Part shown: piece by piece, positions 11,072 through 14,637 of the stretch
How positions within the stretch are numbered: the stretch's first letter is position 1
How the letters are laid out: every line of letters starts with the position of its first letter
NCBI GenBank assembly: GCA_903928915.1
Contig: CAIYSL010000139.1
Span: 1 to 64,000, forward strand
Direction of reading: 5' to 3'
Length of the DNA: 64,000 bases
Source: an uncultured Syntrophobacterales bacterium
GTDB lineage: Bacteria > Desulfobacterota > Syntrophia > Syntrophales > UBA5619
Notes under the pieces: model-generated
Told to the model about the DNA's origin: nothing
The model's input: the letters and a program-made list of their open reading frames with translations, nothing else
Databases searched by the model: none
Program-made: the position numbers and the translations under genes

Positions 11072-11800
11072 ATGGAGGAACGGAAGAAAGCCATCGTCAC
11101 GGGCGGGAGCCGGGGGATCGGCCGGGCGGTCGCCGTCGAGCTGGCCGTCTGCGGCTACGACGTGGACATCACCTACCGGGCAAACGACGAGGCGGCCGCG
11201 GAGACGCTGCGGCTGATCAGTGCGGCGGGCGGCGGCGGGGAGGCCCTGAAGTTCGACGTGGCCGACGCGGCCGAGGCTGAGGCGCGGCTGAACGAACTGC
11301 TCAGCCGCCGGGAGCGGATCGACGCCCTGATCAACAATGCCGGGATAACCGCCGACGGCCTGTTCTTGATGATGCCCCGCACGGACTGGGACGCGGTGCT
11401 CGACACCACGCTCAGCGGGTTCTACAACATGACCAAACCGGTGCTCCGGAAGATGCTCCGGAAAAAGTCGGGCGCCATCGTCTCCTTGGCCTCGGTCTCG
11501 GCCCTGGTCGGGAACCGGGGGCAGGCGAATTACGCCGCAGCCAAGGCCGGCCTGATCGCCGCCAGTCGCGTCCTGGCCGCGGAGACGGCGCGGCTCGGCA
11601 TCCGGGTGAACGTGGTGGCGCCGGGACCGATCGAGACGGAGATGATCAAGGATTTCCCGCGGGAGCACGTCAAGCAGCTGATCCCGATGGGGCGGGTCGG
11701 CAGGCCCGAGGAGGTGGCGAAGGTGGTCCGCTTCCTCTGCTCGGACGACGCCTCGTACGTCACCGGCCAGGTGATCTCGGTGAACGGGGGGATGGTGTGA
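11072..11800 (+). CDS. fabG: 3-oxoacyl-ACP reductase (FabG/ApeQ-like)
   Basis: A 242-residue short-chain dehydrogenase. The NADP(H) loop TGGSRGIGRA, NNAG, the active-site serine in SLASVSALVG, the YAAAKAG tyrosine/lysine pair and the C-terminal PIETEMI and GGMV are all present. FabG-type reductases reduce 3-oxoacyl-ACP in fatty-acid and aryl-polyene assembly. Its stop overlaps the GTG start of the LolA-like gene (GTGA), so they are translationally coupled. A paralogue for primary metabolism would be expected elsewhere. Confidence 0.88.
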   Translation: MEERKKAIVTGGSRGIGRAVAVELAVCGYDVDITYRANDEAAAETLRLISAAGGGGEALKFDVADAAEAEARLNELLSRRERIDALINNAGITADGLFLMMPRTDWDAVLDTTLSGFYNMTKPVLRKMLRKKSGAIVSLASVSALVGNRGQANYAAAKAGLIAASRVLAAETARLGIRVNVVAPGPIETEMIKDFPREHVKQLIPMGRVGRPEEVAKVVRFLCSDDASYVTGQVISVNGGMV

Positions 11801-12438
11801 GCCCACGCGGTTTCCCGGCAGCGGGCCCCCCGCGGGCGGCCCTGTGCGGGCTCCTCCTGCTCGTCCCGCTCCTCATCGCCTGGGCCGACACCTGGGAGGG
11901 GCTCCGCGACGCCTCCCGTACGATCACCTCGGTCGAGGCGCGGTTCACCCAGAAGAAGACGCTTCCCATCCTGGCAAAGCCCTTTGTCTCGTCGGGCCGG
12001 TTCTCCTTCCAGAAGCCCGGGTCGCTCCGGTGGGAGTACGACCGGCCGGTGAAAAGCGTCCTGCTGATGCACGGGGGGGCGGTGAAACGCTACCTCGGCG
12101 ACAAGGGCGGCTGGCGCGAGGAAGGCGGCGCCCCCCTCACGGCGATGCAGACGGTCCTGGAGGAGATCCTCAACTGGCAGCAGGGCCGCTTCGACGCCAA
12201 TCCCCATTTCCGTGCCACGCTCGAGGCCAGCCCCGCGACCCGGGTGGTCCTCGTCCCGAAAGAGCCTTCCTGGAAGAAGATGATCCGGCAGATCGAGCTC
12301 ACCCTGTCCCGCGAGCACGCGGGCGTCATGCAGAGCGTCCGGGTGGTGGAGGACGAGGCGAGCTTCACCCTCCTCGAATTCGACCAGGTCAGACTCAATC
12401 GGCCCCTGCCGGCTTCCCTGTTCGAGAAGGCGGAATGA
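11797..12438 (+). CDS. LolA-like outer-membrane lipoprotein carrier (aryl-polyene type)
   Basis: A 213-residue exported protein with a hydrophobic signal (ALCGLLLLVPLLIAWA). The sequence then shows the LolA pattern: EARFTQKKTLPILAKPFVSSGRFSFQKPGSLRWEYDRPVKS, a beta half-barrel with hydrophobic groove. Standalone LolA-like proteins of this kind are regular members of aryl-polyene clusters, where they are thought to ferry the lipid product across the periplasm. It uses a GTG start in a 4-base overlap with fabG and its stop overlaps an ATG at 12435. Confidence 0.85.
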   Translation: MSPRGFPAAGPPRAALCGLLLLVPLLIAWADTWEGLRDASRTITSVEARFTQKKTLPILAKPFVSSGRFSFQKPGSLRWEYDRPVKSVLLMHGGAVKRYLGDKGGWREEGGAPLTAMQTVLEEILNWQQGRFDANPHFRATLEASPATRVVLVPKEPSWKKMIRQIELTLSREHAGVMQSVRVVEDEASFTLLEFDQVRLNRPLPASLFEKAE

Positions 12439-12446
12439 GCAGAGAC

Positions 12447-12590
12447 GACGGCTGCGGAAAAAGCCCGGATGCTTCGTTGCGCTTCGCCCCTCCCCGGCCT
12501 TCGCCGGGGCAGGCATGCGGCGTACGAAAAGGTACGCCGCACTCCTCGGGCCGTGCGCGCCATACCCGCGCGACTTTATGCGAAGCCGTC
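12447..12590. repeat. 144-bp palindromic interspersed element with imperfect terminal inverted repeats
   Basis: The ends, 12447-12467 and 12570-12590, are imperfect inverted copies (both begin GACGGCT when read inward, about 16 of 20 matching). Inside lie three hairpins: 12492-12509 (CCCCGGC, CTTC, GCCGGGG), 12517-12540 (a perfect 9-bp stem GCGGCGTAC around GAAAAG) and 12555-12571 (5-bp stem, 7-base loop). It codes for nothing recognisable. It sits between the LolA-like and DUF3261 genes. Similar palindromic units ending in a GACTTT-GCGAAGCCGTC-like edge are, from memory, common in deltaproteobacterial genomes; copy number here is unknown. Confidence 0.6.
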
Positions 12591-12641
12591 ACGGCCGTTC
12601 ATGCATCGACGGCAACGCACTCGTTTGCGGCCCGCGGTTTC

Positions 12642-13343
12642 GTGAACGATGAAGCCCCGCCCCTCCATCCGCGTGCCGATCGGAAGCCGCTTTGGCCTCT
12701 GCTGGTGATGCTCACGCTTCTCCTCGTTGCCGGGTGCGCGGGCCCGGCGCCCCTCAAGCCCCTCGCCGAGACCCTCAGACCCGCCGTCTTCGCGGAGTGC
12801 GGCCAGCCCTTCCTGCCCCGGAAGTACCGTCTCGTCCACCGGATTGCGGCCGAGCTCCCCGGCGGCGGGACGGCGACGGCGATCGGCGTCCTGGTTGCCG
12901 ATCCGCGGGAGAGGAGCTTCCGGTCGGTCCTGATGACCCTCGAGGGGATGGTCCTGTTCGACGTGGAGGCCGGTGCGGTCCCGCGGGTCCACCGGGCCGT
13001 GCCCCCCTTCGACCCGCCCGGGTTCGCGCAGCGGATGGCCGAGGACATCAGTCTGGCCTTCTTCCCCCCCGCCGGGGCGGAACCGGTCCGCTGGGGGGAG
13101 GCAAAGCAGGGGGGGCGCGGTTGCCGGTACGAGCTGGCGGAGGGAGGGTTCGTGGACGTCCTTGCGCAAGCATCCGGCCCCCGGGAAATCAGGCGTTACG
13201 GGGCTGGACAAGAGCTCCTGAAAAGGGTAAAGATTCTCTTCCTGGAGAGGCCGGGTCTGGCCGGCGAGCTGGAGATCAGGGGCGAGGGCTGGCCCTCCTA
13301 TGGGCTGCGGCTGCGGCTGATCGAGGCGGAACCCGTCGATTGA
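12642..13343 (+). CDS. DUF3261 lipoprotein of aryl-polyene-type clusters
   Basis: A lipoprotein with signal core PLWPLLVMLTLLLVAGC and a body that fits DUF3261 (LKPLAETLRPAVFAECGQPF near the mature start). DUF3261 lipoproteins accompany LolA-like and MMPL proteins in aryl-polyene clusters; their role is unproven, probably outer-membrane loading. The frame is open back to an ATG at 12435 overlapping the previous stop, but that would add residues encoded by the palindromic element and push the signal peptide to residue 85 or so. A GTG at 12642 gives a normal 31-residue lipoprotein leader (233 residues total) and is preferred, though no strong Shine-Dalgarno precedes it. Confidence 0.75.
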   Translation: MNDEAPPLHPRADRKPLWPLLVMLTLLLVAGCAGPAPLKPLAETLRPAVFAECGQPFLPRKYRLVHRIAAELPGGGTATAIGVLVADPRERSFRSVLMTLEGMVLFDVEAGAVPRVHRAVPPFDPPGFAQRMAEDISLAFFPPAGAEPVRWGEAKQGGRGCRYELAEGGFVDVLAQASGPREIRRYGAGQELLKRVKILFLERPGLAGELEIRGEGWPSYGLRLRLIEAEPVD

Positions 13344-13371
13344 CCGGCGGCTTCGGAAGAGGAACGATGCG

Positions 13372-14637
13372 ATGAAGTTCAGATTGATCTACCCCCGCTG
13401 GAAGAAACTGGAGCGGCAGACGGAATTCCACCTGCCCCCCCACGGGCCGGTGGTGTTCGCCGCGGCGCTTCCCCCCGGGTGGGAGGTGGAGTTCATCGAC
13501 GAAAACGTCGAGCCGCTTCCCGCGGACGGCTCCCCCGACGCCGTCGGGATCTCGATGATGCTCACCGCCCAGGTGAAGCGCGGATGGGAGATCGCCGACG
13601 ACTACCGCCGCCGGGGCATCCCGGTGATCTGCGGGGGGATCGGGACGATGCTCCACGCCGAAGAGACTGCGAAGCACGCCGACGCCGTGTTCCTCGGGGA
13701 GGCCGAGGGGAGGATGGAGCAGGTCCTCGGGGACCTGCAACAGGGCCGCCTCAAACCCCTCTACGACCACTTCGGCGCTCACCCGCCCACCGAGGCCATC
13801 GGCCCGGCGCGGCGCGACATCCTCAACCGGGCCTTGTACAACTACAAGGGAATCCAGATGGTGGATTTGGTCCATGCCTCGCGCGGCTGCCGGTTCAACT
13901 GCTATCCCTGCTGTGTCAGCTACCTGGGGGGGCGGCAGTTCCGCCCCCGCCCCGTGGACAAGGTGATCGCGGAGATGGCCGCGATCGACAACAACCGCCT
14001 GTTCATCGTCGACAATTCGCTCGCCCAGGACCGCGCCTGGGAGCTCGACCTGTTTCGCGAGATGATCCCGCTGAAGAAGAAATGGTGCTGTCACCCCATC
14101 GAGGAGGACGACGAGGTCCTCGACCTGGCCGCGCAGGCCGGGGCCTGGTACGTCTACCAGGCGGTGTTCGACACCTCGGACCGCATCCGCGACCGGATCA
14201 AGCGCTACCACGACCACGGGATCGCCGTGGAGGGGACGGTCCTGTTAGGCCTCGACCAGCACAGCGAGGACGGCATCAAGCGGCTGATCGATTTTCTGCG
14301 GGAGGTGGAGCTGGACCTGGCGGAATTCACGATCCTGACCCCCTTTCCCCATACCCGGACGTACGAGGAGTTCGAGCGGGACAACCGGATCCTGACCCAC
14401 GACTGGGACGCCTACACGGCCGACCGGGTGGTCTTTCAGCCGCGGCAGATGAGTCCCGAGCGGCTCCAGGAGCTGTACGCCTACGCCTGGGATACCTTCT
14501 ACCGGGACGAACCCCAGAACTACAAGATGTTCAAGCTGTTCAAACGGGTCATCGAACGGGAAAAGGAGGACGGCTCCTTCCGGCCCCGGCAGCGGTCGCT
14601 GGCGGGGAGACGCTTCGGACGGGAGGGGGAGGCGTAA
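13372..14637 (+). CDS. B12-binding-domain radical SAM protein
   Basis: A 421-residue protein. Residues 1-150 form a cobalamin-binding-like Rossmann domain (FIDENVEPL, VGISMMLTAQVKRGWEIAD, VICGGIGTMLH), followed by the radical SAM core with C173-x3-C177-x2-C180 (CRFNCYPC) and the downstream VDNSLAQD, GTVLLGLD and PFPHTRTYEEF stretches. Such proteins modify lipids, tetrapyrroles or natural products, often by methylation or ring formation. It lies inside the aryl-polyene-like run, 28 bases after DUF3261, and might tailor the polyene. This is inference from position only. Confidence 0.85.
   Translation: MKFRLIYPRWKKLERQTEFHLPPHGPVVFAAALPPGWEVEFIDENVEPLPADGSPDAVGISMMLTAQVKRGWEIADDYRRRGIPVICGGIGTMLHAEETAKHADAVFLGEAEGRMEQVLGDLQQGRLKPLYDHFGAHPPTEAIGPARRDILNRALYNYKGIQMVDLVHASRGCRFNCYPCCVSYLGGRQFRPRPVDKVIAEMAAIDNNRLFIVDNSLAQDRAWELDLFREMIPLKKKWCCHPIEEDDEVLDLAAQAGAWYVYQAVFDTSDRIRDRIKRYHDHGIAVEGTVLLGLDQHSEDGIKRLIDFLREVELDLAEFTILTPFPHTRTYEEFERDNRILTHDWDAYTADRVVFQPRQMSPERLQELYAYAWDTFYRDEPQNYKMFKLFKRVIEREKEDGSFRPRQRSLAGRRFGREGEA

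Follow-up and report, generated by a model that had tools for sequence, protein, structure and literature searches.

We analyzed a window of 64,000 nucleotides (the whole stretch of DNA) and focused on the junction between two of its plus-strand genes, lolA at 11797 to 12438 (PF03548, E value of 4.1e-15) and a lipoprotein gene that most likely runs from 12642 to 13343. Further downstream on the same strand lies a B12-binding/radical-SAM gene (13372 to 14637), whose start motif recurs at the downstream position in 9 of 11 loci from relatives. Between lolA and the lipoprotein gene, 8 nt after the lolA stop codon, we found a palindromic mobile element with a core of 144 bp at 12447 to 12590. The family consensus of this element reads on the minus strand, and the plus strand of the window corresponds to the transcript orientation. 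The core is bounded by an outer arm adjoining lolA at 12447 to 12463 (GACGGCTGCGGAAAAAG, plus strand), which is terminal-repeat-like and pairs with a second outer arm at 12574 to 12590 (GACGGCTTCGCATAAAG on the minus strand). A first-pass annotation made from the letters of the window had delimited the same unit, with imperfect terminal inverted repeats, and these limits hold: a covariance model built on six copies aligned end to end, the window copy among them, recovered this copy with its exact ends, 12447 and 12590 (E value of 2.8e-27).

The element is repeated within its own genome (G000) and well beyond it. A genome-wide BLASTN count with the 144-bp unit, as proposed by the first-pass annotation for what it had called a MITE-like element, gave seven matches at an E value of ≤0.01, two of which are both ends of one element, while the covariance model identified 12 full-length places in the same genome, all with E values below 1e-12, and seven further rows, of which four are repeats on the opposite strand and three are weak places. 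With this model, we found the element in 42 of 61 genomes (our own and 60 of the order; E value of ≤1e-3) and in 93 of 247 genomes sampled from the phylum (E value of ≤1e-8), where the highest numbers of matches per genome are minima (at least 57 in the first survey and at least 14 in the second). An exact pattern for the central hairpin occurs at at least 80 loci of named genomes. Among the matches listed, 78 bear Deltaproteobacteria-type names (Syntrophaceae, Syntrophales, Syntrophus, Desulfosarcina, Thermodesulfobacteriota, and Deltaproteobacteria), and two are labeled just "Proteobacteria" or "bacterium". To characterize the family we used 196 HMM hits, of which 25 were partial; from the 171 full-length ones, opposite-strand repeats, near-edge copies, and duplicate copies were removed, which left 144 copies. 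Loci L103 to L221 had been picked by the exact central-hairpin pattern, and those copies are therefore biased to intact centers. In the copy alignment, the core measures 118 to 146 bp and contains no transposase gene. The element is short and multicopy, as expected of a MITE.

Folding of the unit as a single strand is more stable than that of shuffled sequences (z-scores of −3.12 for RNA and −3.52 for DNA), and the six-copy alignment folds into one long hairpin. Three internal hairpins had been proposed for the window copy. Two of them are solid, namely, the extra inner hairpin of what we call the long form at 12487 to 12513 (CCTGCCCCGGCGAAGGCCGGGGAGGGG, minus strand, with the stem CCCCGGC/GCCGGGG) and the central hairpin at 12511 to 12546 (plus strand, arms 12511 to 12525 and 12532 to 12546), whose pairs are family-wide. 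The third, near 12553 to 12573, appears in the DNA folds only and is absent from the RNA fold; in the family consensus, these bases pair across the element instead. We measured covariation on 40 copies aligned with MAFFT, for which the predicted fold comprises 34 pairs: 95.5% of cells are paired, versus 85.5% after shuffling and 34 to 42% after sliding, and 23 of the 34 pairs show a compensatory change on both sides with pairing kept, versus 12.6 in shuffled and 7 to 10 in slid alignments, all counts that lean towards the modeled structure, since the copies were found by a sequence and structure model. The outer arms (helix 1) are paired in 92.7% of cells, as terminal inverted repeats would be. 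A scan of 12000 to 13400 against Rfam at an E value of ≤1 gave no match, and among seven loci scanned at an E value of ≤0.1 there were only two matches, both in L024 and off the element. At L024:435-504 there is a subthreshold Rfam match to a microRNA family, mir-373 (E value of 0.004, both strands), which is probably a mere hairpin.

The outer arms are kept among copies, and the inner part differs. The window copy carries the hairpin CCTGCCCC and represents the long form, whose hairpin at 12487 to 12513 recurs in copies of four other genomes (G016, G001, G005, and G013); a pattern search allowing up to one mismatch found it in 4 of 26 genomes, counting our own (G001, G005, and G013 besides). 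Variants of its stem keep the pairing (GGC/GCC, TGC/GCA, and CGC/GCG), and two of the copies with this hairpin, in L228 and L230, are devoid of the usual left half. Other inner parts were observed as well. The copy at L058:2134-2270 of G001 has the inner palindrome CTTCGACAAGCTCAGG...CCTGTCGAACC, and those at L203:4674-4808 and L199:6376-6507 have the inner hairpin GGGGCACGGCATGCCGTGCCCC nested in the same, here weaker, outer arms. A subfamily in L014, L015, and L046 shows a central GCGTAT...ATACG hairpin and ends of the GCTGGC-, GCAGGC-, or AAAGGC-type; its body is like that of the GACGGC type, and its ends are unlike.

A comparison with relatives shows that the junction exists both with and without the element, again as expected of a MITE. 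The first-pass annotation had noted that an ATG at 12435 (12435 to 12437, plus strand) overlaps the upstream stop codon, which we place at 12436 to 12438 as the stop of lolA, and that the element interrupts the expected start overlap. The relatives bear this out: 15 of 17 loci lack the element at the lolA junction, and the lipoprotein start overlaps the lolA stop or nearly follows it, at offset −1 in 14 of these loci and at +8 in one, where the offsets refer to the first start codon found by our script (TTG in L064 and GTG in L067). The ATG now upstream of the element is thus of the ancestral type. One of the 17 loci, L068, has no lipoprotein open reading frame (ORF), and a scan of named genomes for the lipoprotein retrieved no relative. 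The filled site is that of G001 (L058), where an element occupies this junction too (66.3 bits, E value of 1.3e-17); it has the same orientation and begins 3 nt past the stop of lolA.

The sharing of a filled junction by G000 and G001 could reflect a single old insertion before the two genomes parted, which is possible, or two independent insertions guided by a strong target preference, which we regard as somewhat the less probable course of events. In line with independent events, the two copies differ in their inner palindromes and in their gap to the lolA stop (8 versus 3 nt); furthermore, the LolA tree does not resolve G000 and G001, and the lipoprotein tree separates them, if weakly (59/34). 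On the other hand, the orientation is identical and the position nearly so, and a tree of three joined proteins places G000 and G001 on one side of a branch, albeit with a support of only 55/28; in this tree, the family's seven rows with an empty site share a branch at 82/81.

The mobile unit extends beyond the core. Many copies read, in the transcript orientation, as a duplication, GACGGCTTCGTAAAAAGTCC, the hairpin, GAAGCCGTC, a tail like CCATTTTCATGACTTTTAAGACTTTTTACGAGGTCGTC, and the duplication again. The family tail measures ∼38 nt, and its end repeats the arm motif, which makes it a third arm-like motif. For the 142 of 144 copies with 120 nt on each side, exact flanking duplications of at least 8 bp were found in 24, versus a mean of 1.0 in five shuffles of the right flank, while most of the 142 are without a duplication of that length. 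This signal emerged once the tail was allowed for; directly at the ends of the 125-nt core, there was no clear signal for duplications of 3 bp or more. A second end type, GCAGGCTGTTGAAAAACG, seems by eye to be bordered by short CTA/TTA repeats. In L024:1501-1625 (G012) and L025:1199-1323 (G007), the flanks are near-identical, and the insertion, right after a TGA, is apparently shared by the two. What had been described as a MITE-like unit of 144 bp is accordingly a multicopy core, whereas the mobile unit elsewhere is longer by the tail and the duplication. At the position of the family tail, the window has the stretch between the element and the likely gene start (12591 to 12641, plus strand), whose similarity to the tail is not significant (ranks of 768 out of 2,000 and 164 out of 3,000), and the window copy shows no clear target duplication. 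Its right boundary is therefore uncertain. The corresponding stretch of G001 does resemble the family tail (rank 6 of 3,000). A search of our own genome with 12591 to 12735 gave no full-length repeat and three short matches at an E value of 0.045. A target duplication was presumably made at the window site too.

The family favors the 3′ ends of genes and, more precisely, their stop codons. According to gene calls from a simple hexamer script, 100 of the 144 copies have a nearest upstream gene that is directed at the element, and in 74 of the 144 its stop lies within −3 to +12 nt of the element, whereas only 5.8% of 6,268 random intergenic draws fall 0 to 12 nt after such a stop; the draws are from intergenic positions, which makes offsets of −3 to −1 impossible in this null. 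Where the junction has a stop triplet and the upstream gene is directed towards the element (65 copies), the gene ends at exactly that stop in 49. Some of this abutment could stem from stops that the element supplied to genes it had cut, but the reading frames are very unequal (33 copies at −2 and 4 at −13), and several duplications contain the stop. The strong covariation and the location of about half of the copies just past a stop codon are also what one would expect if the unit were not mobile but part of lolA, as a conserved structured RNA or a terminator of transcription. We consider such an RNA very unlikely given the empty junction in most relatives, the presence of the element at many other places of the same genomes, the target duplications, and the absence of an Rfam match.

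We then turned to the lipoprotein gene and its start. From ATG 12435 the frame is open through the element to 13343 (302 amino acids) and the lipobox cysteine is residue 101; the first-pass annotation was therefore right to place the signal peptide about 85 codons on. From GTG 12642 the gene encodes 233 amino acids with the lipobox cysteine at position 32, close to the 222 to 256 amino acids of the relatives with an empty site. The GC3 values over 12435 to 12641 (0.67/0.64/0.71) show no codon-position pattern, while those of the mature part do (0.87/0.76/0.51). Over 12642 to 12734, a stretch of only 31 codons, they are 0.71/0.81/0.45, with a low third value as in the mature part and a first value unlike it. 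Additionally, the start regions of L053 and L054 each match 12643 to 12661 with a score of 25, compared with best scores of 20 and 22 in 100 shuffles. Other observations are less favorable to the GTG: GC3 from 12642 peaks in frame 2 and not in the gene's own frame, which counts against this start, the relatives' start regions exceed shuffles at the start itself in only 2 of 9 cases, and GTG 12642 is without a good Shine-Dalgarno sequence. For one more of these nine relatives, L058, the match lies instead at its lolA end (12638 to 12648 of the window), narrowly above shuffles (22 versus 21). Taken together, we infer that the present lipoprotein probably starts at GTG 12642. The earlier proposal that the element displaced the start is likewise probable, and the change in expression that it also suggested may have followed. 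Its label for the protein, DUF3261, is a weak one: the match scores 11.9 bits against a Pfam cutoff of 22.3 (E value of 0.21), and of two relatives one scores equally and the other not at all.

Alternatively, the element may have been absorbed into the coding sequence, with translation starting at the coupled ATG 12435 and reading through in frame to give an N-terminal extension of ∼70 residues. In-frame fusions of this kind have been reported for RPE, RU, and YPAL (PMC2229807 and PMC10969869). At our locus, the 302 open codons, the Shine-Dalgarno-like GAAGGCGG just upstream of ATG 12435, and the frame of G001 fit this notion: the latter is open as well (290 amino acids), including through its different inner palindrome, although by eye the left end of the element is read there in another frame, and open frames in both genomes are what one would expect if read-through were selected. 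G001 is also the sole relative with a comparably long N terminus, and it carries the element at the same place, whereas a long N terminus without the element would have spoken against the displacement of the start. However, open frames are common in the element (212 of 426 core frames, from 142 copies in three frames), the region upstream of the GTG is devoid of a codon-position pattern, and the first 40 codons of G001 are unclear as well (GC3 of 0.60/0.75/0.53). Moreover, a signal peptide ∼85 residues into a protein would be unusual for Sec export. Read-through from the ATG is therefore unlikely in our view, and GTG 12642 is retained as the probable start.

With respect to mobility, RAYT-mobilized REP/REPIN elements, which a Y1 transposase moves as single-stranded DNA, share with our family the long hairpin, copies in the tens, and a mostly intergenic location. 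Many genomes hold both Y1_Tnp and the element (e.g., G012, G013, and G006), and by eye CGTC precedes the central hairpin in many copies, as in CGTC-tagged REPs (PMC3733652). Nevertheless, our own genome has no Y1_Tnp match and thus no resident RAYT by this measure; seven genomes (G005, G007, G023, G030, G033, G042, and G052) have between 25 and at least 57 element matches and no Y1_Tnp match, and G008, G037, and G056 have 4, 9, and 7 Y1_Tnp matches, respectively, and no element match. The target duplications of the family point the same way, since to our knowledge IS200/IS605-type transposition makes none. Given the lack of a Y1_Tnp match in the own genome and of consistent co-occurrence across the 61 genomes, mobilization by a RAYT is disfavored and appears very unlikely. 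Some other transposase would presumably move the element. In a search for an autonomous parent, we collected end pairs 0.6 to 3.5 kb apart, of which there are 30 (19 plus 11) in 1.28 Mb of loci, and for 12 facing pairs we read the longest ORF by eye, recognizing no transposase; some of these ORFs seem to be spurious antisense frames, and others presumably encode a thiolase, GroEL, and a transport permease. In G013 the end motif has 122 matches in total, and among the matches listed two pairs fall within this distance, one end of each having a single mismatch; we take the genes enclosed by them to be outer-membrane-channel-like and DnaX-like.

By analogy, the element looks like other bacterial MITEs, such as YPAL and ERIC, in its mode of action. 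YPAL/RU-2 is similar by description, with ∼168 bp, internal inverted repeats, target duplications of varying length, expression with upstream genes, and known in-frame fusions (PMC2229807), but it occurs in another host group, and for our element we measured a tail that carries a third arm-like motif, as well as the stop abutment. ERIC (IRU/RU-1) is a 127-bp repeat that is cotranscribed with its neighbors and reported to alter the stability of upstream transcripts (PMC2229807); our element is comparable as a repeat that would be cotranscribed, and its copies end in GACGGC or GCAGGC, in contrast to the TA termini reported for ERIC. Another former deltaproteobacterium, Geobacter uraniireducens, harbors Chunjie, described as a MITE of 178 to 235 bp with terminal and direct repeats that is inserted in an operon (PMC10969869), which is similar to our element on that description. 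CGTC-tagged REPs, described as palindromes of 20 to 40 bp (PMC3733652), are likewise small palindromes without a dedicated transposase, and many of our copies have CGTC beside the central hairpin, but the core of the element is much longer (118 to 146 bp) and comes with duplications, and the window copy has no CGTC tag; the main text of PMC3733652 makes no mention of Geobacter, Syntroph-, Desulf-, or Deltaproteo-. Multicopy palindromic intergenic families have been reported for the related bacteria Geobacter metallireducens and Geobacter bemidjiensis (PMC2700814 and PMC2996986), and, going by these descriptions, our family may already be among them. A literature search with the string GTACGCCGCA returned no paper on such repeats, as judged by titles and the beginnings of abstracts, and the entries listed for Syntrophus or Desulfosarcina repeats held nothing on this family. 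Compared with known MITEs, the traits that stand out are the preference for stop codons and the exchange of inner palindromes.

Overall, we think it likely that a nonautonomous, MITE-type palindrome inserted into the stop/start overlap of lolA and the lipoprotein gene, which now probably starts at GTG 12642. The insertion would have occurred with a target duplication, as a rule against the stop codon of the upstream gene, and perhaps before the own genome and its congener G001 parted. Given that the family duplicates its target and abuts stops, an insertion at such an overlap can leave the stop on one side and the start on the other; here lolA keeps its own stop, the lipoprotein would most likely start at the GTG, and ATG 12435 would remain as an in-frame relic upstream of the element. 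In a transcript spanning lolA and the lipoprotein gene, the element would fold into a long hairpin that could uncouple translation of the lipoprotein from that of lolA and may protect the mRNA or lead to its cleavage at the junction.

This accounts for the odd gene start, and it cautions that ATG 12435 should not be annotated as the start of the lipoprotein unless there is evidence for it. A wider generalization, which we put forward tentatively and hold to be rather doubtful as a whole, is that a phylum-wide hairpin family prefers operon stops and stop/start overlaps, where the target duplication would keep both genes whole, that it would place an RNA hairpin of standard form between genes transcribed together, and that it would replace its inner palindromes by other repeats and retain the outer arms. 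With tens of copies at stop codons and operon junctions, such a repeat could determine the ratio between adjacent genes of an operon in bacteria of the Syntrophales type and in their relatives, and the matched filled and empty sites described here would allow such an effect to be tested.
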